This document shows positions 1 to 40,583 of a stretch of 64,000 bases of DNA, one piece after another. Positions within the stretch are counted from its first letter, which is position 1. Every line of letters starts with the position of its first letter. The notes beneath the pieces were generated by a model, which saw only the letters and a list, made by a program, of their open reading frames with translations, did not search any database and was not told the origin of the DNA. The DNA is from Phytophthora sp. 'mugwort' (lineage: Eukaryota; Oomycota; Peronosporomycetes; Peronosporales; Peronosporaceae): NCBI GenBank assembly GCA_033558025.1, contig JAUCEF010000013.1:3837001-3901000 (forward strand). Direction: 5' to 3'. The position numbers and the translations under genes are program-made.

Positions 1-35
1 GTGCTTCGTTGCCGAAAAAGTTCAAGTCTGCCGGT

Positions 36-655
36 ATGGGCAATATTCCTGCACTGAGAATTAAAAGGTTATTTAGAATGGTTGTCCTTGGGCCCTCATT
101 CAGTGGAAAGAACAACCACTGTCTTTTCATTCTCAAGCATTCACCTAATGTGTTTGCTCATCTCACGATTATTGCCCATAATCCACATCAAGAACTGTAT
201 GAGTACCTCCGCGAGAAGCATGGAAATTTCATTACTTTGCTGACTCAGATACACCCCCAAAAGTTGATCAAGTACGTCATACGACCCATGAGCTCTAATA
301 AACCTAAGGCTTGTTTCATAGACGTCTACAGCAACGACAAGCTATTCCAGAAGAATATATTTTCCCATTATTTTACTCACGGACGTCATTTCAAGTTATC
401 AACTATATTTCTAAGCCACAGCTACTTTGTAACCGATAAGATGATACGGTTAAACTCCGAGTATGTAGCAATCATAAAGGCTAATTGAAAGCAAGATTTG
501 CAGATGGTTGTCAAAGATTTTAATATCAAGGGTGTAGATGCGCTCAATCGTTTATTATCACAACAAGGCAACAGACGGAAAAGGGCAAATGTTGTTCATC
601 TACTCTGTAGAAGGACAGATCAGGTACAATTCCGACCAGCGATCGTTACTTATCA
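36..655 (+). pseudogene. Viral genome-packaging ATPase (FtsK/HerA type)
   Basis: Packaging ATPases of this class pump the viral genome into the capsid. The chosen start is the ATG at 36; the open frame continues upstream to the window edge. A Walker A-like loop, GPSFSGKN, follows a basic LRIKRLFRMVV stretch, as in Polinton and virophage ATPases, but the residue after GK is Asn instead of Thr/Ser. A hydrophobic beta-strand (KACFIDVYSND, near residue 100) would be Walker B. The frame is stopped by TGA at 486-488 and then continues in the same phase to about 655, including KQDLQMVVKDFN, the usual C-terminal segment. The gene is therefore broken by one internal stop. Confidence 0.8.
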
Positions 656-723
656 CTAATTCCAATTTATTAATTCGAAATATGCCTACCATCATATACG
701 AAAGAAGAAACGGCTAGCGTTTT

Positions 724-1685
724 GAAAATTGACTCAACTAATCTTGTAGCTGATTGATACAACTCGTCGTGGAAATATCAGTTTCCTGGATCCGCTGCTG
801 ATTTTCGTGATGTGGTTTGCGCCGTACAATCGATAACGATGTATAACAGTGAGTATAACATCGATGCTATACAACAACAACAATATCAAAACACAGGACT
901 GAAACTTGAAATACCAACGGCTGCTACTACCTCTATCATTACTTTAAATCTCGCTGATGGTATTTACTCCTATGGCGATCTTAACCGTACGATACAAACC
1001 ACCTTGGCCAATTCTGGAGCATATTTGATTGATGGATCTGGGAATAACGTATTATAAATTAAAATTTGTGAGAACAGTGTATATTACTCGTCAGGTCGAT
1101 TTCTCCCCGGCTCCTTCAAGTCTTCCAGATGGCTACACGAGACCTGCAACTGGTCTATATTCAGCTGGTGGTTCTGTATTGCCTACTACTACTCGCGTCC
1201 CTCGCATTATGATCGATAATGTCGATGTTGTGAGAGTAGTCGGTCTAACTGTAGGTACATATCCGGCAGCCTCCGTAATAGTTGCTAGCGCCCAGCTGTC
1301 AAATATCATTCCACAAATACATCCAACGAGCTCATACATAGTTTGTTGCGATTTAATCAAAACCGAGTACGTTGCATCTGGTGATATTGTCGGTGCATTT
1401 GATAGGGGTGATGCTCAAATCGGTGAATTAATCTCATATAAGCCGTCTCAATACGCCTGGATGAATTGTCACAATGGGCCTCGCTCCACAATTACAATCT
1501 CTATTTACAACCAAAACGATAAGAAGGTAATCTTTCGTGACACTCCTGCTTCGATCATGCTGTTGCTGAGACCAAAAAAAAAAGATGAATCTGCTCATTT
1601 TTTTTATCGTTATAATCTTAATGAACCTGCAACTATAGGTTTCGAGCCCCCAGTCTTCTTCATAGACCGTATCCTTGCCATATGA
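724..1685 (+). pseudogene. Penton / minor capsid protein (mCP)
   Basis: Single jelly-roll penton proteins occupy the vertices of Polinton and virophage capsids. Recognisable parts are an N-terminal SSWKYQFPGSAADFRD (about 761-810), ITMYNSEYNI, and DGIYSYGDLNRTIQTTL leading to a Gly/Asn turn, matching the N-terminal half of mCPs. The second half, open from 1029 to 1685, has GDIVGAFDRGDAQIGELI and ends RYNLNEPATIGFEPP, a segment resembling mCP C-termini. A frameshift near 1030-1055 separates the halves and there is an in-frame TGA near 755. It lies just downstream of the ATPase on the same strand, as expected for this element class. Confidence 0.7.
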
Positions 1686-1699
1686 TCTCGGGCTTCTTG

Positions 1700-2155
1700 C
1701 GATCCCTTCACAAATTCCTTTTTCTTGACAATCCCGACAACGTAGCGACGACGGACTTCACCACAAGAGATCTAATTAAATCTCCGTGTTCAGGCTTAGT
1801 AGTCTTGGTAAGGAGAAACGTCTCTCCAGCATCGACTACATCAGTTAAATGTCCTTGCGCTTCGTGCAAGCAAGAGCGCGTTTGGCTCCTTTCCTAACAT
1901 CAGTCATGGTCAGACGTCCTCCAAGATCATTAATATTACTGTCGCTATCATAAATTCAGGTACCCGTCATAATTCGAATAGCAGCTCTGGATGGGATGGC
2001 TGCGGTTGGTTGACCAGCATACGTTGCAAGTGTGGGCACAGCTACATCAGCAACTCGAGACAAAATGCTCGAGTCCTTTGCAAATTTTAAAGCAGATTTG
2101 ATACCTCCCCAAAATTTCTCCAGATACTCGCTCCATGTATACCTCCACCTTGCAT
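1700..2155 (-). pseudogene. Putative pVI/pX-like minor virion protein
   Basis: On the minus strand an ATG at 2155 opens a Gly-rich start (MQGGGIHGASIWRNF). After a shift near 2100 it continues with an amphipathic or hydrophobic helix (GIKSALKFAKDSSILSRVAD, then PTLATYAGQPTAA), an in-frame TGA at 1956-1958, GGRLTMTDVRKGAKRALA, and after another shift a tail ending SGLSRKRN near 1700. A Gly-rich start, membrane-active helix and short basic C-terminus are typical of adenovirus pVI/pX-like proteins in Polintons and PLVs; this is inferred from pattern, not a firm homology. A 20-codon ORF (2206-2268, minus) sits just upstream behind a TATATA sequence and could be its displaced N-terminus. Confidence 0.45.
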
Positions 2156-2312
2156 ATGCTTGAATAGATAGCCAAATTTAATTTTCGTAATGGCTAACCG
2201 AGTTCTTTTACCGACCTCGCTTGAGCTTTGGCTCTGGGATAGACGCTGAAACTACTAACTCTTTGAACATCTTGTATATATTATTTGTATAAGCGAAAAA
2301 CTGATTTTATTT

Positions 2313-2736
2313 TTAAAGAATAGTTAAGTTTAAGTCCTTAAATCTATCTAGTAGATTCATCTTATCTTTTGTCGACGGTACAACCAAAGCATACACCATA
2401 TTCCACAATAGTCCCCGTATGTACCTTGATATTGTTTGGTATTGTATTTTCGATCCCATACTTGGTAGGACCCGCCTCACCCATACTATCGAAGTATTCA
2501 CCGTTGAAGACACAAGTCCAGTGTCCTACATCACGGTTAGGAGGTCTTAATAAAACTAGATAGCTACCTTTCTTTGGGATTGGTTTCGTTATTTCGTTTA
2601 ATTCATATATATTATCCAGATGTACTCCTATTCGATTTGAAAGCTCAATCAGATCATGATCACTCGTAATGGTTTGAGTACGTTTGATAAGATCGCTCAT
2701 TGTATTTAATTTCATCAAAAGTATATTAGAAACCAT
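2313..2736 (-). pseudogene. Capsid maturation cysteine protease (adenain/Ulp1 fold)
   Basis: This protease cleaves capsid precursors during assembly. The likely start is the Met at about 2700 (MSDLIKRTQT); an earlier in-frame ATG lies at 2736. The catalytic His region is DVGHWTCVF, followed by EYFDSMGE, which carries the Asp of adenain-type enzymes, and YGVCFGC near the end, where the catalytic Cys is expected. The first frame stops right after this point at 2362, while the adjacent frame runs to 2313 with YALVVPSTKDKMN, resembling the C-terminal helix that normally follows. A frameshift through the active-site Cys region is likely. The gene is divergent from the capsid gene, with only 12 bp between the 2736 ATG and the capsid ATG at 2749. 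Confidence 0.75.
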
Positions 2737-2748
2737 ATAGATTCAACA

Positions 2749-4478
2749 ATGGATGACACTCCCCAAAAACAACATGGTTTATACCAGAGTTCGCTCCATA
2801 GCGACCCGGAGATCAAAGTATCTTCCGGCAAACGTGTGCCGTTTGTGATCGACCTTAATCAGGGATCGTACCAGAATGGTGTTATAACTATTAATACTAT
2901 AGCCCAGCTGAATGGAAGTGAAGGATTTGCTTGATTTCGCGATGCATACATCATTCTTCCTTACAAGGTCTCAATGCAGAATGGCTACTGCCCAGACTAC
3001 TGCTTCCAACCCTTTCTGCTCTACGCTGAAGTGTGATAACGGGAATGTCATCGATAGCAGGTCGCTTGAACATAATGGCAAGACCGTTGTTAGTATGTCG
3101 GACTACAAGCTATTTTGGATCAAGATTCGCGCTCAGACTAGCTACAGTCCTCAGTACGTTGAGAAGCATGGGGCGAAGTCTTTTCTTTACCCGGATGCTG
3201 CTCAGTCTGCTTTGTATAGTTCTGCTACAAGCTCGACAACGGGAGATGGTTATACTAATACTACTGCATTCTCATTCTCATTTGCTACAACTGGTCCATC
3301 TAGATGTGCATCTGCCGTTAACGATGGTCTTGTAAGACGTCTGTTGTCGAATCCACCTTACGCTGGCTCTGATTTTTTTCCTTCGTGGCCTTCCCTTAAC
3401 GGAGCTGCAGCTTCTACCACAATATCAAACCAATTGGCACGTGGTGCTTTTGTAGCTGGTGCTGGTGCTGCTACTGCTAACGTGATCATGGGAACGTGGA
3501 ACTACATGCTAAAGGTTAAGCTAACAGACCTCCACCCCATCTTTAAGGAACTCGGCCTCATGGCCAATCCACAAAATCCGTCTCCGCTTCCGAGTTAATC
3601 AGGGTACTTCTACTATTGCTGTCGATGCTTCGAAGTGTATGTCGCTGACTATAATTACTCTTGCCTCTGGCAATACTTGTCCAATAATGATTTCGGCTTC
3701 TTCTACGAGTAATCCCATGGCTGGAGTCCTTGCCGCTTCTGCCGGGTTCATTATTGCTTAGGGTACTGTTTTCAATGCCCTTGAACCTACTGTTGATGGC
3801 ATGCTTTTCACCAATTCTCGTCTATACGTTCCGTTTGTGCATCTTGAGAATCCTCAGGCTATCATCTCAAAGCCAGTTAAAAAGATTCGATTTAATGACT
3901 GTTATGCAGTTATTTTATCAGCGTGCTGGTATTGGTAAGCAGTCAACTCAACTAAATGATGCATTCGATATACAATTATCAGCTTCCATCAAGAACGCCA
4001 AAGTATGTCATTCTTATGCCTTTTGCTGAACAAACTGGTAGTTTTGCCACTGCTGCTGTTCAAGAGTACCAGAGACCTTGTGATAGTGCCCCATGGACCC
4101 TACACCAGGCTCTAGTATCCGAAACTTTAACGTTCGTATCGGTTCCCAGCAGACATTTGATATCAGTCATGACTACGATTTCCATCACTTGACGAAGGTG
4201 AAGTTGCCAAGATTTCTTCGATCAATGGTGATCTCACGCCTGAGCTGGTAATGGATTATTCGACTATCATACGTGATCTCTAACGAACCGCGTGCTCATT
4301 ACTGACGTTAGCCGTTTAACCGAGCGTGATGTCCCACAAGCGATTCCGATTCAAAGTGTGTAATGCGGGTTGTCAGGGTACCAACATGATTGTATTGGTT
4401 GTCAGTGAACAAGAACTATCGTTCGATAGACTAACCGGGGAAATTTTGGGAATACTCAACCGCATAGGTTTTCGTTAG
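2749..4478 (+). pseudogene. Major capsid protein (double jelly-roll)
   Basis: The main capsomer of Polintons/PLVs is spread over several frames for about 1.7 kb, close to the usual 550-600 codons. The ATG at 2749 opens an N-terminal segment ending IAQLNGSEGFA. An in-frame TGA follows, then the same frame reads DAYIILPYKVSMQNGY. Diagnostic segments downstream are KLTDLHPIFKELGLM (about 3515-3560, the linker between the two jelly rolls), SRLYVPFVHLENPQAI (about 3817-3865), the adjoining KPVKKIRFNDCYAVIL, RIGSQQTFDISHDYDFHH (about 4135-4190), RVLITDVSRLTERDVPQAIP and a C-terminal VVSEQELSFDRLTGEI ending at 4478. At least five frameshifts or stops are present. Confidence 0.85.
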
Positions 4479-4551
4479 TGTTTAATCGAGAGAAAAAAAA
4501 AGCATTCGATGAGCTTATTGGTGATCAGCCAACCTAAATAATATTATTATC

Positions 4552-4854
4552 TTAGTTTAATTCTTCTAAAAGCTTAGGACATTTATCAATTACGAATTGA
4601 CTCTTTCGAAGCCAATCAATATAATTGGGGTCAATCCGACTGATCTGCTTGAGAGACTTACCTCGATATTTCCCCCACGTCATCAAATATGAACTATCAT
4701 CGATGAGAAATTTGGAGTGTAGGAAATTTTTAATTTCTTCTTCAATATTTAGACTGGGTTGATTGAATATCCATCGACAATAACCAGGATCAGAAGAATA
4801 TACTTCCTCGTTCGGTTTGTTCTTGTAATTTCCAAACGTTCGTTCGACATGTTT
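4552..4854 (-). CDS. Small protein with two ExoX-C-like (DUF3820-type) repeats
   Basis: An uninterrupted minus-strand frame of 100 codons runs from just after a stop (4855-4857) to TAA at 4552. It has no ATG at its 5' end, so the start was lost or lies across a frameshift; an ATG at 4848-4850 is out of frame. It contains two copies of one motif: FGNYKNKPNEEVYSSDPGYC followed by RWIF, then WGKYRGKSLKQISRIDPNYI followed by DWL. This 'FGKYKGK..VAxxDPxYxxWL' pattern is that of the short domain found C-terminal to ExoX-type exonucleases and as small stand-alone proteins in large DNA viruses and their relatives. Its role is unknown. It appears intact except for the start. Confidence 0.6.
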   Translation of the reverse strand, partial: KHVERTFGNYKNKPNEEVYSSDPGYCRWIFNQPSLNIEEEIKNFLHSKFLIDDSSYLMTWGKYRGKSLKQISRIDPNYIDWLRKSQFVIDKCPKLLEELN

Positions 4855-4966
4855 TCAGTTGGATGTATCTATATACATAGCTCCTTTAATTGTTTGAGAT
4901 AATTGTAACTAATTCAATTGATCGCGGATACTAAATTATACCTTAACTCGAAGTAGATGATCTATA

Positions 4967-5156
4967 GCTTATGCGAACGTGCAACACATTAAGTCTATCC
5001 TCGTGTTCTAACCCTATAGAATCGCTGTGTCATTGAAAACAACAGCTGTATATTAGAAATAATTAGAAACGTTTATACCTACTCTTGGTACAGAATTAAG
5101 GTAAGAATTATCGAAAATATAAAAAACGTACACGTAATGTTCTGAAAGTTACTACT
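4967..5156 (+). repeat. Polinton terminal inverted repeat, right end
   Basis: A 190-bp stretch beginning GCTTATGCGAA and ending GAAAGTTACTACT matches 34163-34352 over its whole length (roughly 75-80% by eye). No similarity is seen just inside this boundary. The outer end read inward is AGTAGTAACTT, the AGT start typical of Polinton termini. It abuts copia gag sequence at 5157. Confidence 0.8.
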
Positions 5157-5162
5157 TATGTC
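5157..5162. other. 6-bp target-site duplication (TATGTC), right copy
   Basis: TATGTC separates the Polinton terminal repeat from copia gag. The same hexamer, in copia gag orientation, ends the gag fragment next to the other terminal repeat at 34353-34358. Counting the hexamer once joins the two gag fragments in one open frame. Confidence 0.8.
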
Positions 5163-5959
5163 GTCATTGTCTATGGAACTAGGACAGCAAGTGATGATTA
5201 AGAGGACTGGAACAGAGAGTAGTGGAAGTACTTGGAGGACATATACGAGTGCAAGACAAACACAGCCACACGTACTAACCAAGAGATTATCTTGTTCAAC
5301 AAGCTACAGGCCGCGAAGTGTAAGCCAAATTGGAATGCGAGACAACATGTGAGCAACATGTTCCTGATAAAGGCTCAACTTGCATTGCTGAATGCTGATC
5401 TGAGATATCCCATCTTCATCAATTGTTGATGAGATCGCTACCAACAAATCCCCGCTTTGACCGTCTCAGAGGATTGGTTGAGATCGGTGCAAGTGAGGTC
5501 GACACACCTGACAAACTACGAGACCAAATTTTGCGCATGGATAGTATAACAAGTGTGATCGCGAATTGGGAGTATTAAGTGTTAACACTGCCCAGAACAC
5601 ACCACAAAACCAAAGTCAAAAGCAGAAGCCGCAACAGTCTCATCCGAGTACTGGAACTCACTCTGGAGCCAAGCAAGCAGGCAACGCCGGAAAGGGTTGC
5701 TGCGTTGACTACAAAGAAGGTGGATAAACAACAAGGAAACTGCTTTAACTGCCATCGACTTGGACACATAGAGAAGGACTGCGCGAAGAAAGCTGCAGTG
5801 CCGTCCCCCTTGGATCAAGAAAGCAAGCAAGCGACTTACACCAGAAGGCTGCGCAAGAACAGTACTCGGAATGTAGGAAATACTACTACTCCTGACATCG
5901 AGACGGTGCCTGAAGAGCCACCAGCTTCGCTCGTAAGTGATGTTAGTGATAAGCCGTAG
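5163..5959 (+). pseudogene. Copia Gag
   Basis: Gag forms the virus-like particle and binds element RNA. After the insertion point the sequence reads MELGQQVM, then (5223-5429) WKYLEDIYECKTNTATRTNQ, a copia Gag/UBN2 core segment, and then a piece with LRGLVEIGASEVDTPDKLRD in another frame. A single CCHC zinc knuckle, CFNCHRLGHIEKDC, lies at about 5741-5781 and is followed by a hydrophilic tail ending at 5959. Frameshifts occur near 5225, 5430 and 5577. The N-terminal part of this Gag is found on the minus strand at 34353-34504. Confidence 0.8.
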
Positions 5960-5989
5960 CTCAAATCAATCAATGAAAACATCTCTGCC

Positions 5990-7208
5990 AACGTGAGCGT
6001 CGATACAAGATCGGAGGACTACGCTATTTGGGAGTGGTACTTAGACAATGCGGCGAATGTTCACATGGCGTCCGACCGCACATATTTCACGGAATACTTG
6101 AAATTCGATGAGAAGCAGATGCTGTACAAGGATTCAGTAAGAAGTCCGCAATTACTTCAGTTGGACATGGTATAGTGCAAGTAGTAGTCTAAAAAGGCGA
6201 ACTGGACGCGGTCATTACGCTTCAGGATACGTTTCACGTATCTGACGGTAACAATTTACTGCCGCACTCTCAAACTGAGGGGCAAGGCTATGCCGTAGAA
6301 TTTAATGGACGTTCAGGTACAAAGGCGTACGAACTATGGAAAGGTGAAGAAAATTGCTGGAAGTTGGCCGTGACAAAAAAAGTCTGGACTGTTCACATTC
6401 ACTGTGAAGAATATTTTCTTACCAGAAGGAAGTAAAAAAAATAACTCCCCAAACCAGTCACGATGGCGCACCATTACCACAAGCGAATATATCAGCTGCT
6501 TGTGGAGCTGCTGATCTTCAAAGGTGGCATGAACGATTTGGCCACTTATGCCCGCAATTTGTGAAGATGATGGTTGATCGTGGACTTGTAACAGGGATGA
6601 TGATTCGACAATGTGGTTTGGAGACTGTGAAGCTTGCCACATGGGGAAGGAGCGAAGACCTCCCATTACACAGCGACTAGAACGTGAAATTTCTCGGAAG
6701 AATCAAGTAATATTCGCTGACTTGCTGTTCCCGAAGCAGAGTGGATGCTCAAGCGACCCAATGACTGTGCTAGTCATTATAGATGGCCACACGATATACA
6801 ACCATTTACCCGCTCAAATCGAAAACTGCAGCGGAGGTAAATGTGGCGATGAAGAGATACATTGAGTGGGCAGATAGGCAGTTCCCGGGATACAATGCGA
6901 AAAAGGTGATCACAGACAATGGTGGAGCATTTGCTAACGGCACGATGAAAACATGGTACCACAAGAAGGGAATCGAGTTCCTGCCAAACCAACCTCATAG
7001 TTGTCACTTGAACCCATGTGAAAGAACTCACCAGACTCTGGTTCACATGCATGAAGGCACAGCTGAGTTCGTCAGACTTGCCCATGAAATTCTGAATGCA
7101 CGCCTTGGAAATGGCGGTGTATATCAGAAACCGGTCGTATCACCAAGCAACCAAGGACACGCCGTACCATTTGATAATGGGGAAAAAGCCCAAGTTACAC
7201 AGGATTAA
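5990..7208 (+). pseudogene. Copia protease and integrase
   Basis: An aspartic protease site appears as WYLDNAANVHMASD near 6034, where the usual DSGA reads DNAA. The integrase zinc-binding module follows in pieces: WHERFGHLCPQFVKMM at about 6510-6570 and CEACHMGKERR at 6626. The catalytic core has VIFADLL (first Asp, about 6715), ITDNGGAF (second Asp, about 6915) and LNPCERTHQTL (Glu, about 7020), the spacing expected of a DDE integrase. The core is interrupted by shifts near 6600, 6780 and 6860 and stops at 7208. It belongs to the same element as the RT downstream. Confidence 0.8.
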
Positions 7209-7478
7209 GATGACTGACTCAGTAGCGTATGTACACATGCCAACGAGTCCGTCACGTCGGAAATCGAGATAACTACCGTCTTGGCTTCCTGGAGGGGCAA
7301 GCGGGCTACCAAGTGTAATTCCCGTCAGAGCACGTTGTGCAGCATGTCCAGTATGCGACGGGCAACGAAGACATCATGTACAGGGACCGTTAGCGATGGC
7401 TACATCAAGTCGGTTGCCAATTGGATGTTCACTGTTGAAACTACGGAGTGAAATTGATGTGGAGATAACCAGACTGAA

Positions 7479-8270
7479 CTTAATGAAGTTGTGAATCTAA
7501 ACGAACAAAACAACCTGCCACCTGCACGAGCACCTAATTCGGATGATCCAGAACTTCCCGACTACGAGGATCTTGATGACGTGCCTGAAATTTCCGTCAA
7601 TGATGGGAACGAAGAAATAAAGGCGTCACAAGAATCTGAAATTGGGATAGAGGAATCGAATAGAATGCCAATAAACTCAGCTTCCCCGGAGAAAGCTAGT
7701 GGTAACCTAGTGGAGTTTCAAAAGGTTGTTCAATTGGATGATCAAGTGAATTCTGATCACGACGAAGAGATGGAAGAAAACACTCCAGAACTTCCCAGTG
7801 TGATCCCAGAAGAATCAACTGAGAACAATATATCCGATGCTCGCGAGACGAATGGACCTCACGAGCAAGAAGATGCGGATTTGGAAGGTTCCGTTAGTGA
7901 AGAAAAAACTGAACAAGAGCCTAAGCCATCCGACCCTTCATTTAATGAGCAGTCTACACCAGGTGAAGATGAATCGAATGAAGATGGATAAAATCTAGAA
8001 AGAAACATTAAAGATGCCGATGGTTGGACGCGTCGCCCTCCATGGAACAAACTGGACATATTAGAAGTACACACGAGGGACGGCCTACAAGACAATCATC
8101 AGGAAAGCAAATCTGAGTGTAACGTTAGCTTATCTGAGAACACCTCAGCAGATCAAGAAATGACAGCAGTGGATACTGGAAATGAGATGGACGTGTGCAT
8201 GATACCCGCGCGACTAACGGGTACAGAGCGATCATCGCTCGAAGTTGAACTGGAGGATGTACAAAACTGA
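7479..8270 (+). pseudogene. Copia pol linker, Asp/Glu-rich
   Basis: An open stretch between integrase and RT is very acidic, with blocks such as DPELPDYEDLDDVPEI and SDHDEEMEENTPELPS. The longest frame is 7491-7991, and the composition continues in other frames to about 8270. This position corresponds to the poorly conserved spacer between integrase and RT in copia Pol. No enzymatic motif was seen. Confidence 0.5.
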
Positions 8271-8305
8271 AACGTCAACGCAACCTCGCAAGACAACCCC
8301 ACAGA

Positions 8306-10010
8306 ATGACACTCCGCAGTGAAGCTTGGCGTCGATCTCTGAGAAGATTCGAGGATTTTCAAGTATATGCTAGCTTCTGCAAACGAGAATCTACGACCAA
8401 CTCTGACATGATAGCCGATAGAAAGTGGCACATCAAGAATGTGAAAATGTCTCGAAGCTATGGCGAAGCAATTCGTTCACCCCAGCATGAAGAATGGCTG
8501 GAGGGTATGCGTCGAGAGGTGGGTGCCATGTTCGACAAAAGGTGTGTTCGAGCTGATTGATAAAACGGAGATGCCGAAGCAGGCGAACCTGCTACATACC
8601 ATGTGGAGATTTCAAGCCAAGACAGATTTGGAAGGTTTTGTGTACAGATGGCGCCCACGTTTGGTAGGACATGGAGACTTCCAGAAGTTTGGAGTGGACT
8701 ATGATTTGACGTTTTCACTAGTAGCTCGCATGGTAACATTCCGAGTAGTAACAGCAGTGGCGACTAAGCTAGGTATAACCCTTTACCAGGGAGACATCGA
8801 TACTGCATACTTGAATGCAGATCTGAAAATCAACCAATATACGTACGAAGTATTCCAGGGTTTCTCTGTCCAGAAGGCTAAGTCTACCGAGTAAATCGAG
8901 CGCTTTATGGCTTACACCAGTCTGGCGCTGAATGGCTTGAAGAAGTGGATAAGTTTCTCAAATCCAAAGGCTATCACTGCACGGACCTGAACCTTGTCTG
9001 TATGTCTACTACAAGGATGGCATCCTGACGCCAATCCCGTTGTACGTAGATGACATAGTAGTTGCAACAAATTCGGTGGACTACAAGACCGCATTGTTTG
9101 CTGCTTTTGATGAGAAGTGTGGCTTTAAAGATGGAGGTATTGTTCATGAATTTCTCGGTGTGCAAGTGGAACAAAATGAACGAGGTATTTGGATTCATCA
9201 GGAGAAATATTGCAAGGAAGCAATTGAGCGTTTTGGATTTGATGGAGCCCATGATAGCGCAACTCCTATGGACACAAACTCAAGATACAAACCCAACACT
9301 AACGGTGAAGAAGAGGAAACAATACCTTTCGATTATCGAGCTGCGTTAGGATCATTAATGTATCTCACTACTAGCACCCGACCTGATATTGCTTTCTTGG
9401 TTGGATATTTGAGTCGCTTCGTTAGCAATCCAACGAAGAAGCACTGCGGGGTAGTAAAGCGTATTTTACGCTATCTAGTGGATACTAGCAGAAAGGGAAT
9501 CTTGTATTCCGCAAAGTAACGAAGGAGCCGACAAGATAGTCGTCAGTGGGCATTGTGATGCGGACTGGGGTAATGACCCAGAGACCCGCAAGAGCATCAC
9601 TGGATATGTTTAACCATCGCTGGAGGAGCGGTGGCATGGGCCACCGGACGACAGACTGTTACAGCACAGTCTACTGCAGAAGCAGAATACGTCGCAGCAT
9701 GTGAGGCCATAAAAGAAGGCCGAGGAATAGCTAACATGTTGGATGAAGTTCTCAACGTGATCGGCGTGAAGACACAGTTTACTTTAGGTGTGGCCAATGG
9801 CGCGGCTACTGCTCTTGCATAAGCTCCCACCTACAATAGCAAGACGCGTCACATTGAGATTCGTTGACACTACGTGAGTGCAAAAGTGAACCAAGATCTA
9901 ATGGAAATCCACAAGGTCGAAGGGTGCAAGAACCCCGCGGACATGTTCACTAAACCGCTGCCAAAGAGCAGCCTCAATCAATATTGCCAGCAGGTCGGTA
10001 TAATTAGCGA
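8306..10010 (+). pseudogene. Copia reverse transcriptase and RNase H
   Basis: RT is recognisable from VTFRVVTAVATKLGITLYQG followed by DIDTAYLNADL (about 8730-8830), matching the copia box around the first catalytic Asp, and from PLYVDDIVVATNS (about 9034) with the YVDD motif. After GIWIHQEKYCKEAIERFGF and STRPDIAFLVGYLSRFV, the RNase H domain is marked by GHCDADWGNDPETRKSITGY (about 9549), STAEAEYVAACEAIKEG (about 9670) and KTRHIEIR (about 9840). The protein is spread over at least five frames, so the element cannot encode its own RT. Conserved order and spacing make the family assignment safe. Confidence 0.85.
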
Positions 10011-10061
10011 GATACCACCCGCTAGCAATTATGTGTTCCAGCGCAAGCGTCGGCGGGGGCG

Positions 10062-10397
10062 TGTTACGCTACAGCTCTGGTCGCCACCGTTAGGACGAGA
10101 ACCACCGTTAGGACAAGACGCTTCCAGAGTGTTCGACAGCATGTCGTCCCCGACGAGGGACGAGGTCAAGGAATATTTCAAGTTGAAGACGCCAGTAGGC
10201 ATCGATGGCCACGTCGCTCTCAGTGAGTTTTGCATATGAACAGACTCAGTCTCGAATACGACATCTAAGAGAGAAGCAGTCTCAGGAGAAGGGCGAGCTG
10301 AGCAACTACGTATGAATAGAAAGTTGGTGTTTTAGTTTACAGAGCTCTTGTCTTGTACTCTGCTCAATAGTTGCGTCGCGGAACTGAGATAGGTACA
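10062..10397 (+). repeat. Copia 3' LTR
   Basis: A 336-bp LTR starts TGTTACG after a purine tract and ends ...AGGTACA, with near-complementary TGT/ACA termini. It matches the minus-strand LTR at 34616-34948 over its full length with high identity. It contains a short tandem duplication (two copies of a CCGTTAGGAC unit near 10090). Confidence 0.85.
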
Positions 10398-10511
10398 CGA
10401 TATACTATACATGTATATATGTACCTGCTGTCCCAAACTATGTATTTTGCTTGCTAATTTAACTGCGTCGACCGGAGACCTAAATGAGACGGGCATCCCA
10501 TATAATATGTA

Positions 10512-12023
10512 CACTGCCGGCCAAGTGGTTATGCACACCCACTTTGGCAGTCATATCTCGGTCAATACTGCGCGTTACGCCCTAATATTCGAGTATATTG
10601 GATTTAGTATGCTAGCGCACCTCCCACATCTGTAAACGCACGGGATTTAGCAGGTTACGAAGGTGCTCATATACAAGTGAGCGTTTTGGCCAGCGCGTCC
10701 AGTAATACGCATATGAGCTCAGATACAAAAAATAAGTGAAATGGATTGATTGTCAAATGCGGGTATGAATGACTAAGCCATTTTGGAAAAATAGGCCGCG
10801 GTCCACCGCTTACAGAGCGGGAGCGAGGGAGGATCGAAGGGCTGGGCCAAGCTGACGTGGGCATTAGGTAAATCGCTAGGCAGGTGGAGCGCTCCACCGA
10901 CGCCGTAGACTAGAAGCCAGCAAGGTTTTGATGGGGCCTGCGCCCAGCTTGTCCGAGCGCGACGTCCGCCGTCTAGTCCGTCAAGCATCGACGGGCGATT
11001 TTTCGGCTCCACACTTTAAATCTATGCTTAATCTAACCCCCTCAGTAAGGACTAACCAGGTGTTCTTTCTAATGTTGACTGGCTTTGCTACTCTAAACTT
11101 AACAACACGTTGCCGCTATCGAAAGCTAACAAGGCTGCGAGGAAGGCATGGGCGTGGAAAATCTTGATGCATGAAGAAGGGAAGGATGTGTGGGAAAATA
11201 TTATTGTTTCAGATGAAAAGTAGAATCTTGACGGGCCGGATAATTTCCGGCACTACTGGCGGGAACTTCCTTGGTGGCCGCGAGAGAATCGCCGTCGCCA
11301 GGCTGGCGGGGGTTCGTGCATGGTGTGGGTGGGCTTCTCCGCCAAGGGGAAACAAAAACCGAATTTCTGACGGGTCGCCAGAACTCCGAGGACTACATCT
11401 ATACAGTCTCGGAGTTCCTCCTCTCTTTTGCGCACCTCAACTATGGCACGGAAGTTATCTACCAACAGGATGAGGCTTCCATCCACATGTCTAAGGTCAG
11501 TATGGCCTGTTTAGAGGAGCAGGGGGCCAAGGAGCTGGAGTGGACGCCGCGATCTCCAGACCTGAACCCCATCGAGAACCTCTGGTCGAACCTGGCTCGC
11601 CGAGTCTACAAAAACGGTCGCCAGTTTCCACCGTTGCCGAACTTCGCGTTGCTATTGAGCAGATATGGGAATCTATCGAGCCCAAGATAATCCGATCCTA
11701 ATCGATTCGACGCCGCGCGCTGCCAGGAGGTGATCCAGAAGATCGGCAATAAGACTCGCTATTAATGCAAGTTGCCTTTGACCATCTTTCTGTTTCACTT
11801 ATTTTTTGTATTCTGAGCGCGTGTGCGTATCACTGGATGCGTTCTCCAAAACGCTCACTTGTATGTGAGCCCCTTCGTAACCTGCTGAATCTCGCGCGTT
11901 TACAGATGTGGGAGGTGCGCTAGCATACTAAATCCAATATACTCGAATATTAGGTCGTAACGCGCAGTATTGACCGAGATATGCCTTTCAAAGTGGGTTT
12001 GCGTAACCACTTGGCGGGCAGTG
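10512..12023 (+). mobile_element. Tc1/mariner element with long terminal inverted repeats
   Basis: The element starts CACTGCCGGCCAAGTGG and ends CCACTTGGCGGGCAGTG, with TA on both sides (10510-10511 and 12024-12025), as expected for Tc1/mariner insertion. The inverted repeats are about 230 bp (10512-10741 and 11793-12023), far longer than the usual 20-30 bp. A broken DD34E-type transposase lies between them. The element begins about 110 bp after the copia LTR. Confidence 0.85.
10770..11762 (+). pseudogene. Tc1/mariner transposase
   Basis: Transposases of this family cut and paste the element using a DDE triad. An N-terminal segment with ERGRIEGLGQADVGIR and later RDVRRLVRQAS (10800-10990) resembles the paired helix-turn-helix DNA-binding region. 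The catalytic core starts WENIIVSDEK (about 11190-11220), followed at once by an in-frame TAG. It continues NLDGPDNFRHYWRELPWW, GSCMVWVGFSAKG, then after a shift YQQDEASIHMS (second Asp) and TPRSPDLNPIENLWSNLARR (third acidic residue). At least three frameshifts and several stops exist. Confidence 0.8.
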
Positions 12024-12025
12024 TA

Positions 12026-31926: not shown

Positions 31927-33200
31927 TTACAAAGGGCTTGGAGGCCAGGAGGTGCACCCGGAACTTGGCAAGGGTATATTTCCTGGCAAGCAGCCCTTGT
32001 CACGAACGCGGTAGTTCCGTCCGGCAGCCTTGAGCTGCTGGCCTGAAACGATATTGCTAATTACGTCCTCAGCTTTGTTATGCAGCAATGCACAACCGAT
32101 TGCGTAATCGTCTGCACCACAGACAGCGCTGAATGGCCTCGTCTCGTCCGGCAATGCCAGGACAGGCTCCTTCTGACGGCTAGCCTTGACATTGTCAAAG
32201 GCTTCTTGGTGCTCACCCCCCCCCCCCCCCCAATTCCAGTCGGTATCCTTCATCAGAAGGCCCGACAAGGTTCTAGCCAGACCCGCGTACCCTCGCTGTA
32301 CTTGTGGAGGTAGTTGGCTTAAGCCCAGCCACTTCATGAGGTCCTTCTGGGACCTAGGCGTTGCGAAATGGCCTTGACCTTGTCCGGGTCGACTCGAACG
32401 CCGACGTTGCTAACGAAGCAACTGACAACTTTAATCTCTTGCACCGCGAAGACGCACCTTCGGTATTGGCATAGATCGTATTCGCTCCCATGACCTTTAA
32501 CACTCGACGGAGGTGCTCCCAATGCACCTCCGTAGCCGTCTTGCCTCCATGGGCACGGTTACAGACGAAGCTCTCGTCAAAGTACGACTGTGCGTACGCA
32601 CGCAGCGGTCTAAGCGACTGCGTGACCAGGCGATTGAACGTCGCCGGGGAATTTGACAGGCCCAGTGGAATCACAAGCCACTCTTGGAGCATACCACATG
32701 GGGTGCTCATTGCGGTGAGCGGGATGTCGCTCTCGCGCATCAGGATCTGGTAGTATCCGTCCACCAGATCCAGGGCGTTGTATAACTCGCACCCTGCCAG
32801 GTTGTTCAACAACACATTTTTCCGCGGGATGGATGCCTGGGCCGGTACCGTCGCGCTGTTCAGCTCGTTGAAAGCATGAACCAGACGTCACTTCCCGTTC
32901 GGCTTCCGAACGCAGAAAGTTGGCGTCGAGTGCTGGGATTTCGATTCCCGGACGATGCCTGCCTTGGCCTTAGCGACGAAGAAGGCATCAGTGACCTCGC
33001 ACTGCTCGCGAGGCAGTGGCTAATGTCCGGTGACAGTAGTTTGTGCCTGGCGTGTCTGACCCCACGACCCGGTGGGAGTTGGACGGTGGACCCTTGGACA
33101 CCACGTCCTCGAACTCCTCATCAAATGATACACGGGATCCTTTGGGTTCATGCGAATCGCAGAACCCAGCGCGTATCACGCTGGGATGAGGATGCCTCCA
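31927..33200 (-). pseudogene. Chromovirus RT and RNase H
   Basis: RT pieces are DTPGTNYCHRTLATASRAV (about 33040), ELYNALDLVDGYYQILMRES (about 32780, first Asp), GMLQEWLVIPLGLSNSPATF and AYAQSYFDESFVCNRAHGGK (about 32590-32540). The catalytic pair, normally Y/F-x-DD, reads YFDE. The RNase H start reads FSAVCGADDYAIGCALL, with Gly where the first catalytic Asp is expected, and QLKAAGRNYRVRDKG lacks both expected Glu residues. A run of 16 C at 32216-32231 encodes a polyglycine insertion before HQEAFDNVKAS. All three active sites are altered. Confidence 0.75.
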
Positions 33201-33289
33201 GGACGTCTTCGTCTATAACCGAGGAGGAATTCAGCTCCCCAGAAGAGGAACAGTGCTTCAAGATTACCACCTCCGCGATCGCCCAGCGT

Positions 33290-33744
33290 TCAGGTTGGCC
33301 AGGAAATCTGTTGGTGCCAACGCTCAGGAGCTCTGTTCACAAGATCATGCATGAATCGTTTCTCTGTCCACCATTCATACGACGTCAACATATACATCGC
33401 ATCAATGCTGTTTTGGTTGCGTGTTCGCACCTTGTACTTCAATTTGAGTGGTTTGTCGGCCGTCCATGTATTCGCATCAGCTGCCGTCATACGCTGATGC
33501 ATCGGCAATTTGCCATTTTCGAAGCCTAAAACTCTCCTTTCGTGAAATATGGCTTTTGAAATGCCTCACACACCAATGCATCCAGAGTTGTCCCGACTGG
33601 AACTTCCACTAGCTGGGCGATGTCATTATAGTCGCACACATACACTTGGACCGTACTCGCTGGGTCCACATCCTCTCGAGATGCACGTGGTGTTGCGTCT
33701 GTAGCGCCATACGTCAGCATGTCTTCGTTGTTTTCTGTTTCCAC
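33290..33744 (-). other. Unrecognised ORF pair next to the Polinton left end
   Basis: Two minus-strand frames (33744-33526, 72 codons; 33508-33290, 72 codons) may be one broken gene. The first contains STVQVYVCDYNDIAQLVEVP and ends YFTKGEF; the second contains YMLTSYEWWTEKRFMHDLVN. No known domain is recognised. They lie between the chromovirus fragment and the Polinton terminal repeat at 34163, so they may be Polinton cargo read inward from that end, or unrelated sequence. Confidence 0.25.
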
Positions 33745-33759
33745 TTCGGAAGCAACCGG

Positions 33760-34162
33760 AATGAATCACTCACAATTCATTTTCTTAATTCATGACGCAC
33801 CTCAAGAATATGATACCCCCCCCTCAAATCAATGATGACATTGACATCCTTCTTACCATAAACAACTCAGAAAGCTTTTTTCGATACTGAGACACGCCAC
33901 GTTGCGCTGGCCCTCTGAAACTTAGTATGACAACACCCAAAAACACCCTATCTTAATGACCAAAAGGATAAGAACTTCCTAATAATACGAACCAACCACT
34001 TCTGAATCAAATCGACCAGAACCAGTATATACCAACAACAACGAATAAAACTGGTATTCACAAAAAAAGATCAAGAGATGCTGTCTGAATGCTTTGATTG
34101 AGTGGTTCTCGAAACTAGTCCTGAAGCGTCGGGTACCTCCTTGTGCTCAATGCTGGTTGCCG
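33760..34162. other. AT-rich sequence inside the left Polinton terminus
   Basis: No ORF is recognised. The stretch is AT-rich and directly adjoins the terminal repeat, so it is presumably the subterminal part of the Polinton. It has no similarity by eye to 4860-4966, the matching position at the other end. Confidence 0.35.
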
Positions 34163-34352
34163 GCTTATGCGAATGCCTGTGATACAGTACCCCCATCCTC
34201 GTATTCTAACCTAATCGACTCGTTGCGTCGTTGAAACCAATGATTGATTATTAGAAACGCTTATAAACGTTTACACCTTTTCTCGATATAGAATAAAGGT
34301 AAGAATAAACGGAAATTAAAAACATACACGTAATCTTCTAGAAGTTACTACT
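34163..34352 (+). repeat. Polinton terminal inverted repeat, second copy
   Basis: This 190-bp stretch matches 4967-5156 in the same plus-strand orientation, from GGCTTATGCGAA to AGAAGTTACTACT. It is bordered at 34353 by GACATA, the complement of TATGTC, and then by copia gag on the minus strand. Confidence 0.8.
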
Positions 34353-34358
34353 GACATA
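34353..34358. other. 6-bp target-site duplication, left copy
   Basis: GACATA on the plus strand is TATGTC in gag orientation, identical to 5157-5162. It is the left copy of the duplication made when the Polinton entered copia gag. Confidence 0.8.
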
Positions 34359-34615
34359 ATCATGTGCTTGACCTTCATCTGGGCATCGTTGAACTGTTTC
34401 TTTTCAGCATCACCCGCGCCCGGGGCCAGCATCTTGTCTCCGTTCGCATATCCCAGGACGTCCTTGTCCGCGAACGAGAGTTTTATCATGTTCTTGTGGT
34501 ACAACTAGCACTGGCCATGCCAGTTCACTGGACGCCCCTTTTGTTGAGTTCGACCTTTGTCCAAGATTCTTGAGCGTTCGGTACTAGCCTTGTTGCCAGC
34601 TTGGGCTGATAACCC
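34353..34615 (-). pseudogene. Copia Gag N-terminus and primer-binding site
   Basis: Downstream of the LTR on the minus strand, GGTTATCAGCCCAAGC (about 34600-34614) resembles the copia primer-binding site complementary to initiator Met tRNA. The Gag start follows from about 34504: MIKLSFADKDVLGYANGDKM and later DAQMKVKHMIMS, where it meets the Polinton terminal repeat at 34352. The interrupted codon register matches the gag piece at 5163, so the two are halves of the same gene structure. Confidence 0.75.
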
Positions 34616-34948
34616 TGTTCCGATTTTAGTTCCGCGACGCAACTCTTGAGAGTACAAGACAAGGAGCTGTGTAAAGTAAAACACGAGCTTTTTATTCCTA
34701 CTCAGTTGCTCAGCTCGCCCTTCTCCTGAGACTGCTTCTCTCTTAGATGTCGTATTCGAGACTGAGTCTGTTCATATGCAAAACTCACTGAGAGCGACGT
34801 GGCCACGATGCCTACTGGCGTCTTCAGCTTGAAACATTCCTTGACCTCGTCCCTCGTCGGGGACGACATGCTGTCGAACACTCTGGAAGCGTCTTGGCCT
34901 AACGGTGGTTCTCGTCCTAACGGTGGCGACCAGAGCTGTATCGTAACA
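34616..34948 (-). repeat. Copia 5' LTR (minus strand)
   Basis: The minus strand starts TGTTACGATACAGC at 34948 and ends ATCGGAACA at 34616, with TGTT/AACA terminal inverted repeats. It matches the LTR at 10062-10397 over its full length with only scattered differences by eye. Confidence 0.85.
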
Positions 34949-36546
34949 CATCGGACCCCATATCTTCTTCGCAGCAGCGCTAAGATATACTGGCAGGGGA
35001 GCCGTGGTCGGTAACGCGGAGGTTAAGGCCATTAACCTCCGTGCGACCGCAACTTGAGGGTACGAGTTTGGTAATGGGATACGGAACCTGAAGAAAGTGC
35101 TAGGAGTGGGTCTATTTTTCCAAGTCTACAAACAATAAAGTGAACGCAAATCCTGCACCTGTATGAGGAAAGATGTCCACATAGCGTGTACACAGCTTGT
35201 GTTTGGCATACTTTATGTCATTCTAAATTTGGAACGTTCTATATTTTATGGCTCGCTTTACCGACCAATGTGCTTTCCCGCTGGCACCAAATTTAGAACG
35301 TAGGATTCGAGGTGTCGGACTGCTCATCAAAGCATCGATTAAGGGTAGGTCCAACAGTGAAATAGAAGAAACAGGTCTCGGCGCGGACATGTACAGTATC
35401 CGGTTCTTTTATTGTGTGATTCGTGTGACGAAGTGCGTTCGGTACTGTAACTGGAAAATAGGGAAGCTTTTCTACGGTAATACATGTAATAGGCTCCTGC
35501 AGTGCAAGTCGCATGCGCGAGTTGACATGTAAGTTTTGCGAGTTGCGGTCCCGGCTTTCTCGGCATGTCTCACCACATGGTCGCCCATTGGGCCAAGGCT
35601 TGGCTTGTGATGGTGCAGCTGGACTTTTTCGGCACAAGTAATACTTGAAGGCCTCTTAAATAGCCCGGCATACCGGTAGGTTTGCCGCTGACCACTCTAC
35701 CTCCGACGTGCGAATCCGAACTCATCTCCTGACAGACCAGACCACCTGCTCCTACTGCCAGGCGAACTCCAATGGAACTGTCTTTATGACAGGCGGGATT
35801 CACACACGGTTGCGGAGGTTCCTCGAAAGGCTGTTAGTTTGACAGCTTTTCAAGTTATGACCGGACTCGACACGCGTTGGGATTCAACTCGTTGGAAAAT
35901 GGGCAGTACAGCGTACTGTAAGGCGCACGGCTGGTTAGTCCGTTGCTGGTGTTAAACCGATCTGCAAGCTGTTCATCGACCCCATCGGCTGCATCTGGCG
36001 TTCTCGGAACTGATCAACTGAGCAGAAAAACTAGCATTTCGCCACTTCGGAAAGCTTCCTTGCGCTTAAGACGGAGGCTGCTTAAAAAATAAGTGCTGGC
36101 AACATTTCCAATTTTGCCAGTGGACCTTCTCATGACTTTGAGGGGATAATATCTACTCTGTTTAGTACCTGATTGCTTGGGCGCTGCTGCACAAGCAGCG
36201 CCCAAGCAATGGGGCCCTTAGGCCCAGAGAGGGCAGCGATGCATCCTTGCCTTAACTGCTAGTAGTTGTTTCTGGACCTTGCTATGAGAGCTTACATTTC
36301 TTTGAGCACAAACGGGCAACCAGAACTACACTTGTTTCAAATTAATATTCTGTTGCTGTGTAAATTAGAATACATCTGGTGGAGTTAGATCTGGAGCGCC
36401 TGATGTTCCTATGATGGGATTGCCGGCCCGCCCCTCACAAGTTTCAGTTCACGCAGCACCGTCGTCTGTTAGACACGAAGAAGCACTGCGGCGCCTGGAG
36501 CTAGGACACGACAACGCAGACGCCAGGACACAAACTAACTGTCAAG
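34949..36546. other. No gene recognised
   Basis: Only short frames occur, none with a known motif. A palindrome lies at 36172-36210. The right end forms the upstream region of the Cys/His-repeat gene. Confidence 0.4.
36172..36210. repeat. Perfect 17-bp-arm hairpin
   Basis: ATTGCTTGGGCGCTGCT and its exact complement are separated by five bases. It is GC-rich in an AT-richer context and is followed by GGGGCCCTTAGGCCC. It may be a MITE core or the end of a transcribed element. Confidence 0.7.
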
Positions 36547-38160
36547 ATGCCACTGGGAGAGAAGCTCGGTCGCCCCTTCGAGCTGCTGTCGCTCATCGGC
36601 CGTAAACGCAAGGACGAGCCGGATGAGAATCACCACCGCCTCAGCGGTGCCGAGGCGCGCGCCTACGCCAATGCCACGGGCTCGGCCACCTCCGGCTATA
36701 CGCACAGCCACAGCTCCAGCCATAGCCACAGCCACAGCAGCCACCATTCAAGCGCCAGCAGCAGCAGTAGCTTCTACCCCGGCGTCAAGTATGAGCGCAT
36801 CACGCCGGCCACACAGGCGGCGCCGGTCGTCCAGTATGAGCGTCTCACACCAGACTCAGCTGCTGCTTCAATCCCGTCCGCGGCCGCCCCCGCAGTCACC
36901 CACCCCTCGCCTCTGGACTACGAGGCCGCGGCGCGAGAAGCGGCCTTCCCCAGCCCGGACTTGGTGCCGTCCGCCGCCGTGGCGTCTAGCTCCTTCCGCT
37001 CAGCGCCGTCCCCCGCCCTGTCGTCGCTCCCCTCCCCTGGCATGCTCACGCCACTGACACCCGCGGTTGGCATGACCCCCACGCCAGTAGGACGCAGCCC
37101 AGTTGTCGACACTATTCGTCCATTGCGCCCGCCTCGCCAAGCTCAGAATCTGGCGAGCCCGGCTCAGCCTCCCGCTGGTCCTGCAGGAGTGCCGTCTGCA
37201 CCCTTTTCCTCTGTGATGGAGGAGTGGATGAGTCAGTTGAGGACCCCGACACCCGACGTGACGCTCTTGCCGTCGCCCTACGATTTTAACAAGGACACAC
37301 CCACGCCTATGGACACGAACAGCATGGACTTGCGGCGGCTTCAGGACGCTCTGCTACCGACGCCCCCACCAGATGTACATGATCAGAGACAATACCCGAA
37401 AAACTCGGCGTACGTGACGACATGTGGGCCCCGTCCACTACTTGAGGACATTGCGTCTTTGTGTCGTGATTTGAACTCGCAGGATCTTTCGGGCTCTAAT
37501 AAGGGAATGCTGCCGTCGTCTAGTGGACAGATCGAAGTCAAGTACGCGACGCTCCCAGCAAGGCCACTGCGTGCTCGTGAGGAAAGTATCAGCAGCGCCT
37601 ATTCGGACGACGGAGAGAGTCAAGCCAAGATGCTGGCGGCGGCCGCCGCGCTTAGCAGCGTTTCATCGATGGGTCTTTCGAGTACCCCGACGTCGGCCAG
37701 CTCCAACTCGGGCACGAAGGGCAAGCGTCGCAAGATGTGTACAGCTGAAGGCTGCCAAAATCTGTCGCGCTCACGAGGACTATGCAAGGCGCACGGGGGA
37801 GGTCGGCGGTGCAGCGTTGACGGCTGCTCCCGTGCTAGCCAAAGTGGTAGTTTGTGTATTACGCACGGTGGTGGCAAACGCTGCACTGTGGATGGTTGTG
37901 TTAAGGCAGCCCAGTCGCGCGGCATGTGTAAGGCCCACGGTGGAGGTGTGCGTTGTCGTGTGGAAGGCTGCGCCAAGAGCTCACAAGGTGATGGTTTCTG
38001 CCGCTCACACGGCGGTGGTCGCCGCTGTGGCCACCCGAGCGGCTGTTCCAAGTGGGCCCAGCGTAACGGAATGTGCATGGCGCACAGCGAGGGTAAGTAT
38101 GGCAACAGCTATCGAGGACGCCAGCATCGAATGGAGGGCGGGGCCCAGATCGTAGCCTAA
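36547..38160 (+). CDS. Cys/His zinc-repeat protein (oomycete 'WRKY19-like')
   Basis: A 537-residue protein from the ATG at 36547. The first 390 residues are low-complexity and rich in Ser, Pro and Ala, with a His/Ser run near residues 55-75. From about residue 397 there are five tandem Cys/His repeats of the form C-x4/5-C-x9-C-x2-H, most followed by GGG (for example CSVDGCSRASQSGSLCITHG). Such arrays occur in a large oomycete family often auto-labelled WRKY19-like because plant WRKY19 has similar units; no WRKY domain is present here. Basic residues (KGKRRK) precede the repeats and fit nuclear location. Zinc and nucleic-acid binding are inferred. The gene is intact and codons are G/C-rich at position three. 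Confidence 0.75.
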   Translation: MPLGEKLGRPFELLSLIGRKRKDEPDENHHRLSGAEARAYANATGSATSGYTHSHSSSHSHSHSSHHSSASSSSSFYPGVKYERITPATQAAPVVQYERLTPDSAAASIPSAAAPAVTHPSPLDYEAAAREAAFPSPDLVPSAAVASSSFRSAPSPALSSLPSPGMLTPLTPAVGMTPTPVGRSPVVDTIRPLRPPRQAQNLASPAQPPAGPAGVPSAPFSSVMEEWMSQLRTPTPDVTLLPSPYDFNKDTPTPMDTNSMDLRRLQDALLPTPPPDVHDQRQYPKNSAYVTTCGPRPLLEDIASLCRDLNSQDLSGSNKGMLPSSSGQIEVKYATLPARPLRAREESISSAYSDDGESQAKMLAAAAALSSVSSMGLSSTPTSASSNSGTKGKRRKMCTAEGCQNLSRSRGLCKAHGGGRRCSVDGCSRASQSGSLCITHGGGKRCTVDGCVKAAQSRGMCKAHGGGVRCRVEGCAKSSQGDGFCRSHGGGRRCGHPSGCSKWAQRNGMCMAHSEGKYGNSYRGRQHRMEGGAQIVA

Positions 38161-39901: not shown

Positions 39902-40583
39902 AATCGCCAACACGTTGACGCTGCCGACAGATCCGCAGTACGCCATCCTATCGGCCTTGGAATGAAATCGATTGTGCTCCCTTTGCCACGTGTATGCGTG
40001 CTACAGGAGTGGCCTACGCTCGCCTTCTCGACCAACACGAACGCGTCTGCTATTGCTCCTATGTTCTTGTTGTTGCGCTACCAAAAATCGCCCAGTGCTT
40101 CGAGCACAGTGTCAGACTCCCACCTGTTCGTAGGTGGTTGTTTGTTTTCGATGTCTCATCGGCGTCCTCGCGTCGTAGTTTGGTCTCCTCCAGACTTCGT
40201 CCGGATATGAAGACTTATATTTTTCAACGCTGCATAAGACTGCATAGTCTCCTGCAAACTTGTACTTTCACATCACCGATATCTATATACGGCGTAATTT
40301 TGTGACCCCTACCAGCAAGGTTATCCATCAAGTTAAGGCGAGGAAGAGAGAGAACACCTTAGCTAGGGTTTATCGACGGTTTTCATTCGCGTCGAGCACC
40401 TTAGGCGGCGGCATCCATGCACAGGTAACGTTACAGATGAAGTCACGGGGATTCTGACTCATGGAGTTTATTATAAATACTCATGACAAACTACTCTTAC
40501 GTTTGCTACCAACCCACTTCCACTGCAGTGGCGTTCCCACGTGGTCCGCAGCTTTGAACCTTTCTTCCTTTGGATAGCTGATT

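Follow-up and report, generated by a model that had tools for sequence, protein, structure and literature searches.

A Polinton-type element inserted in the gag gene of an oomycete copia, its two ends probably parted by a later inversion

The stretch analysed here, called the window, comprises 64,000 nucleotides of Phytophthora sp. 'mugwort' (contig 13, 3837001-3901000; window position p corresponds to C13:3837000+p, and negative coordinates lie to the left of the window). As listed in Table 1, it holds a copia retrotransposon interrupted within gag, a 190-bp terminal repeat beside each half of that gene, and part of a high-copy retroelement, R, that encodes a reverse transcriptase. The copia has the Ty1/copia arrangement, with an integrase (rve) piece, below Pfam's cut-off, upstream of its RVT_2 pieces, a pair of LTRs that differ at 17 of 332 sites (K2P 0.053), and a 5-bp duplication, CGATG/CGATA, that matches at four of five positions. 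Unlike an intact Ty1/copia element, it is broken by the insertion, by frameshifts and, on the reading developed below, by an inversion. To the right of copia lie two long open frames, 36505-38160 (+; 551 codons) and 38615-40000 (-; 461 codons).

Table 1. Features of the window and of the sequence to its left, in window coordinates.
Feature	Position	Strand	Basis or remark
DNA-packaging ATPase remnant (Pox_A32 family)	3..485	+	Pfam PF04665, E 3e-6, 27.3 bits against a cut-off of 22.8
Major capsid protein gene remnant	2912..3595	+	Similarity to a Phytophthora cactorum UniRef protein
Putative A-side part of the Polinton-type element	1..5156, on to about -11700 (C13:3825300)	+	Low G+C, family similarity
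Terminal repeat A	4967..5156	+	190 bp; outer end 5156 (ACTACT)
Target-site duplication, copy 1 (TATGTC)	5157..5162	+	gag flanks and comparison of family ends
copia, rest of gag and pol	5163..10061	+	gag alignment, Pfam
copia rve piece	6783-7205	+	Below Pfam's cut-off
copia RVT_2 pieces	8445-8891 and 8953-9516	+	Above Pfam's cut-off
copia 3' LTR	10062..10397	+	Followed by CGATA, copia's own duplication
CTCGGT, unoccupied relative of the contig 2 element's site	10557..10562	+	Flanks of C2:304433/319089 each align up to the hexamer
R domains	RVT_1 32357-32887; RT RNase H 31930-32409	-	Pfam
High-copy retroelement R, part	32400..33338	- (coding strand)	RT-encoding; broken at about 33338
Putative right inversion breakpoint	33338..33339		Placed within a few bases; the left one at about -11699, likewise
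Putative B-side part of the same element	33339..34352	+	1,014 bp; 85-90% to C1:491480-492483 and C13:5165839-5166816
Terminal repeat B	34163..34352	+	190 bp; outer end 34352 (ACTACT)
Target-site duplication, copy 2	34353..34358	-	GACATA on plus, TATGTC on minus
copia leader and N-terminal gag part	34359..34615	-	gag-flank searches
copia 5' LTR	34616..34948	-	Preceded on its strand by CGATG

Repeats A and B are 75.5% identical over 192 columns in a self-comparison of the window (E 5e-30), with identical outer tips, ...TTACTACT, and the terminal letters GTTACTACT in common. Beyond A, the right half of gag begins at 5163; beyond B, the left half runs on the minus strand from 34359 upward. A sequence-only reading of this DNA had placed both repeats, TATGTC and its complement, and the gag portions behind them, to the exact base, and the alignment that it proposed, of 4967-5162 with 34163-34358, returns this identity along with complementary hexamers. 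It did not mention that the two repeats stand in direct orientation.

Searches of the genome (86.3 Mb, 154 contigs) with both gag flanks found copies in which the flanks match side by side. Five of the six matching gag loci run uninterrupted across the insertion point with the hexamer position present once (L077, L073, L071 and L072, 85-91% identical; L079, 71%), and the sixth, L078, ends two bases before the site. The unoccupied copia that the earlier reading suggested looking for is thus at hand; none of the five site-spanning loci carries the hexamer twice without an insertion, and the 190-bp repeat does not occur in copia loci L071, L072, L073, L077 and L078 (best local match 10-19 bp), so that it is no normal part of this copia in the loci tested. 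Because the two flanks, put together, match these loci across the insertion point with a single hexamer, an insertion with a 6-bp duplication into copia gag, an event of a known kind, is confirmed at base resolution. The empty-site hexamers, CATGTC, CGTGTC, TGTGTC, TTTGTC and TATGGC, each differ from TATGTC by one or two bases and none is letter-identical, which counts against the history preferred below. When the hexamer is counted once, a 113-codon open frame spans the gag junction; the earlier claim that this frame is continuous gag holds only for about 18 codons past the hexamer, where the joined frame resembles the empty-site copies. Beyond these codons, a net difference of 2 bp relative to L077 and others shifts the frame, so that on our reading of the alignment the remainder of the open frame is not gag.

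The window ends belong to a genomic family. Searches with the repeats (40 of 60 candidates scored for A, 20 of 20 for B) led to 49 distinct places, from which 43 ends were examined with their flanks; six places were left out (C2:3125194, C6:1533895, C6:1529094, C5:1239245, C4:2120409 and C16:1984496), two of which reach the terminus, and two inner secondary matches (L042, L061) were dropped before ends were counted. At distances of up to 120 kb, these ends form eleven pairs, eight inverted and three direct. The flanking hexamers match in seven of the eight inverted pairs (four exactly, three with one mismatch) and exactly in all three direct pairs (the window, C1:492483/548796 and C10:2300130/2383153); overall, the duplication is exact in seven close pairs including the window, has one mismatch in three and is lacking in one. 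Among distant pairs the hexamers match in 2 of 892, in both cases because the contig 10 element is coincidentally flanked by TATGTC too. The family of Polinton-type ends with 6-bp duplications is therefore real. At C7:6200246/6205734 (L028), two ends without matching duplications lie 5.5 kb apart with a DUF7769 piece between them. The window also holds an empty site for another member of the family: the two flanks of the contig 2 element come together at CTCGGT (10557-10562).

The termini read ACTACT exactly in 28 of the 43 ends, both window ends included. The 6-bp duplication and (AGT)2/(ACT)2 ends by which the earlier reading had recognized a Polinton are thus present in the window element, and entry of a Polinton-type element into copia gag is supported. 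The centre of the duplication (positions 3-4) is a pyrimidine-purine step in 33 of the 43 ends, and in 25 of 33 if each verified element contributes a single end, against a background of 0.248 (p about 1e-9). DDE integrases make a staggered cut that prefers a flexible centre, and the pyrimidine-purine centre is the signature of such a cut; over 43 ends it amounts to an integration preference for an oomycete family. That entry was integrase-mediated, as had been asserted, is what the duplication, the termini and this target centre suggest, and an integrase presumably made the cut. An integrase gene itself was not recognized: none of 50 open pieces, taken from four loci of the family and a fifth of doubtful status, in copies that are decayed and were read in pieces, matches a recombinase or rve model in Pfam or PHROGs.

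Since repeats A and B are direct, they cannot bound an ordinary insertion of the DNA between them, and the 29-kb element that the sequence-only reading implied (5157-34162) has to be given up. Like repeats that lie 29 kb apart and point the same way could suggest a composite element with direct terminal repeats, mobile as a unit. The probability of this is close to nil, because each repeat has its duplication on the same side, the two copies being complementary rather than direct, and because the interior consists of copia, another transposon and R. Instead, the comparisons with relatives indicate that the two repeats are the ends of one Polinton-type element of about 17.9 kb, most of it left of the window. 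The window would hold 5,156 bp and 1,014 bp of it, with a further 11.7 kb to the left, and the G+C content of the A part stays at 0.39-0.45 as far as about -10,300. With an inversion allowed for, the reconstructed length is 1,014 bp plus about 16.86 kb; six of seven unbroken verified relatives measure 18.2-22.6 kb, and the seventh 14.7 kb.

The gene content of this element is that of a decayed virus-like element. Over 86% of its length, the capsid piece shares 86% identity with a Phytophthora cactorum 'Capsid protein' (UniRef), and its nearest protein relatives come from Phytophthora, including P. infestans and P. sojae. The major capsid protein of the family is predicted to be of the double-jelly-roll type, as which a full-length relative models; a separate AlphaFold model from the P0001 alignment had a mean pLDDT of 31.5 and was discarded. 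A polymerase piece in the window copy is weak (PF03175, E 0.06, under threshold), and the same family barely passes its cut-off in the verified sister C17:4521826-4540017 (25.9 against 25.8 bits). An open piece inside the A end (4555-4854, -) has an ExoX-like_C match in two stretches (PF20600, E 4e-16), and a Peptidase_S74 fibre-chaperone remnant lies at -1759..-1343 (L070:8241-8657, -), with a tail fibre as its best PHROG match.

An inversion of about 45.0 kb after the insertion would explain the odd geometry: it would have cut the element 1.0 kb from its B end, parted its ends and reversed one copia half. Relatives of both breakpoints bear on this. In both relatives of the B part, C1:491480-492483 and C13:5165839-5166816, that part is followed, after 86 and 21 bases, respectively, by a homologue of the start of the A part, which spans -11700..-11407 in the contig 1 relative and -11700..-11368 in the contig 13 relative (5165499). 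Similarity to the A part is not continuous beyond about 300 bp in either, which counts against the inversion reading; as it ends at about 300 bp in both, both relatives are broken there themselves. In the contig 13 relative the A part picks up at the next base or two, with the homologue of -11366 at C13:5172700, 5.9 kb farther right, and continues to at least -10280, so that the window order from -11700 to -10280 is ancestral. The region -11368..-10330 has many matches in the genome, the best of them about 5.9 kb from the B end of the contig 13 relative. This second contig 13 element (C13:5165499-5172700; L084, L062, L091) is split where its homologues of -11368 and -11366 would otherwise meet, as expected of a further inversion.

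Within the start of the A part, a TIR-like core motif at -11529..-11469, which is subterminal in B-type elements and has the same orientation as the end, counts against the preferred reading. We considered -11700..-11368 as foreign to the element on account of this motif and of its higher G+C, and dropped the idea; the region was kept as subterminal sequence because a similar inner copy exists at the L061 end and because in the contig 13 relative this sequence is present to either side of the break.

The other side of each breakpoint belongs to R. At least five R copies are common to the best 40 of 344 candidate copies for the part 32400-33338 and the best 40 of 247 for the part -12100..-11698; in these the two parts (up to 33338, and the reverse complement of -11698..-12100) lie 13 to 42 bases apart, and the four of the five that were read (L085-L088) all align through the breakpoint. 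A flip of about 45.0 kb, from -11699 to 33338, therefore restores both the Polinton-type element and R. As we read the alignments, the joins lack some 22 bp from the element and 21 bp from R, the two breakpoints share no long homology, and each junction joins unrelated sequences. Both breakpoints lie within repeated families and the locus is known from the assembly alone, as would suit a wrong join between repeats. Such an artefact is nevertheless improbable, given that no long homology exists at the breakpoints, that unrelated sequences are joined with about 20 bp missing from each, and that two more pairs of ends have the same direct geometry, with a third locus indicated by the order of its element.

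Homologous recombination between two inverted Polinton-type elements, which swaps their halves and leaves two hybrids, would likewise yield ends that point the same way and carry matching duplications, the pattern of three loci. For the window it is very unlikely: the break joins the element to R and not to another element, the two parts of R rejoin across the same breakpoints, and no second B-type end occurs near the locus among the matches listed. At the contig 1 and contig 10 pairs such a half-swap is possible. In the contig 1 element the B part stops about 1.37 kb in and the A part starts at the homologue of -8224, boundaries that imply a loss of some 3.2 kb; in the contig 10 element only 97 bp of the B end is recognizable, and a search of L090 did not find the boundary of its A part. 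The breaks at four loci lie at most 0.1, 1.0, 1.3 and 1.4 kb from the B end. B-type ends sit on short inverted-away pieces in all four (the window, contig 1, contig 10 and contig 13 at 5.17 Mb) versus none of the seven unbroken verified pairs. That the B-type end is a recurrent inversion breakpoint is a doubtful proposition, drawn post hoc from few cases, with the place of the contig 10 end in its clade unsure.

The locus is very probably the product of four stacked events: copia, a Polinton-type insertion in its gag, R, and an inversion of about 45.0 kb. In this history, copia would have entered first, leaving the duplications CGATG/CGATA. A virus-like element of about 17.9 kb with imperfect (AGT)2//(ACT)2 repeats would then have entered gag through a 6-bp stagger centred on a pyrimidine-purine step, placing TATGTC on both sides. 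R would have come to lie nearby, before or after that insertion. Finally, double-strand breaks at two points, 1,014 bp from the B end and inside R, would have been rejoined inverted, presumably by end joining, with about 45.0 kb inverted and some 20 bp lost per break. The first two steps follow from their duplications, the second also from the empty sites, and the fourth from the existence of relatives of both breakpoints. The repeats are only 75% identical and copia is multicopy, as might be expected of two unrelated insertions in two copia copies that share the hexamer by chance. This reading has a minimal probability, because the LTR pair, the copia duplication, the hexamer and the continuity of both the element and R indicate a single locus, and because distant ends so rarely match.

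Between the two window repeats the K2P distance is 0.270, a value five times that for the LTRs of the interrupted copia. The insertion is not older than copia, so the repeats must already have differed when they were inserted, unless the LTRs were converted. A tree of the 43 ends separates the two ends of eight of the ten verified elements by a branch with support 97/91. The terminal repeats are 75-86% identical in nine of the ten, and the ends of C17:2150213/2169092 are sisters with 97% identity. In AU tests, a sister relationship of the two ends is rejected for the window (9e-11), the contig 1 direct pair (6e-4), contig 3 (6e-3) and contig 2 (0.01), and is not rejected for contig 10 (0.41; its B end has a long branch and an uncertain place in the tree), C17:4521826 (0.16), C7:844685 (0.057), contig 5 (0.28) and C1:3263602 (0.18); rejection in only four of the nine tested pairs counts against the preferred reading. 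Grouping the 43 ends by the sequence just inside the repeat gives sets of 14 (13 A-type), 9 (8 C-type), 3 (all B-type) and 2, with 15 singles, and none of the seven verified elements represented in the set of 14 has both of its ends there.

Left and right repeats follow lineages of their own, and homogenization has occurred at least once. We lean towards the view that left and right repeats are inherited separately and only rarely homogenized, and that the genome is not routinely copied by one end templating the other through a panhandle. Because the split between left-type and right-type lineages runs through the family, the window repeats already differed by 25% before the insertion, and terminal-repeat divergence does not date these insertions. 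That divergence was considered as an insertion age and rejected, the LTR distance being only 0.053. If the lineages are indeed separate, ages derived from terminal-repeat divergence would be wrong by several-fold, while nested copia LTRs provide an independent upper bound on insertion age. The nested insertion thereby offers two clocks at one locus that disagree about five-fold, which makes terminal-repeat identity as a measure of Polinton-type age directly testable and bears on how the linear genomes of such elements are copied. Furthermore, three of the ten verified elements have direct-orientation ends and would be missed by a search for ends that relies on inverted repeats alone.

The element shares with Polintons/Mavericks the 6-bp duplication, the 5'-(AGT)2...(ACT)2-3' termini, terminal inverted repeats, a size within 15-40 kb, a packaging ATPase and a double-jelly-roll capsid, the last predicted from a relative. 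The name Polinton in the sequence-only reading therefore stands in a broad sense; published surveys, in the portions drawn on here, place such oomycete elements by their capsid gene in the Gossevirus group of polinton-like viruses (PMC7805220, PMC10120064). The same portions describe oomycete hosts, terminal inverted repeats, double-jelly-roll capsids and, in some elements, pPolB, and report 5-7 bp duplications in three of seven published cases with repeats. The capsid relatives of the window element include P. infestans and P. sojae proteins, and P. infestans capsids are published as members of PC_0014, a Gossevirus-group capsid cluster. In contrast to that group as described in these portions, the window family has no recognized integrase and has divergent, side-specific ends, which are not mentioned there for the published elements.

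Vertebrate Mavericks, according to the part of the source consulted (PMC8097293), share the (AGT)2//(ACT)2 end motif and the 6-bp duplications with the window family; their hosts are vertebrates, whereas the window family is of an oomycete and its repeats are 75-86% identical in nine of ten elements. In cryptophyte polinton-like viruses, 6-bp duplications accompany an rve-type integrase, and nesting with retrotransposons is reported in the excerpted account (PMC12220804). The duplications and the nesting are thus shared, but there retrotransposons lie inside viruses, whereas here a virus-like element lies inside a retrotransposon. The same account takes repeats of at least 97% identity with duplications as recent integration; in the window family a low identity would not show age. 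None of the published accounts consulted, each in part, combines such nesting with an inversion. What is new here is the inversion behind the odd geometry, together with the evidence for two ends evolving apart.

In a contig 17 element (L083:2669-5937 compared with -10296..-9903 and 914-3713), a core of about 13.6 kb runs opposite to that of the window element, and the join at L083:3057-3061 is sharp. A split copia copy on contig 1 (L075:3892-8672 with L074/L077; 1950001-1990000) has its halves swapped with a 5-bp overlap, and one half adjoins a broken Polinton-type piece at about L075:3930. Inside the window, 10510-12025 is a foldback-like transposon with inverted arms of about 250 bp that are 89% identical, whose relative on contig 2 hosts another Polinton-type insertion.
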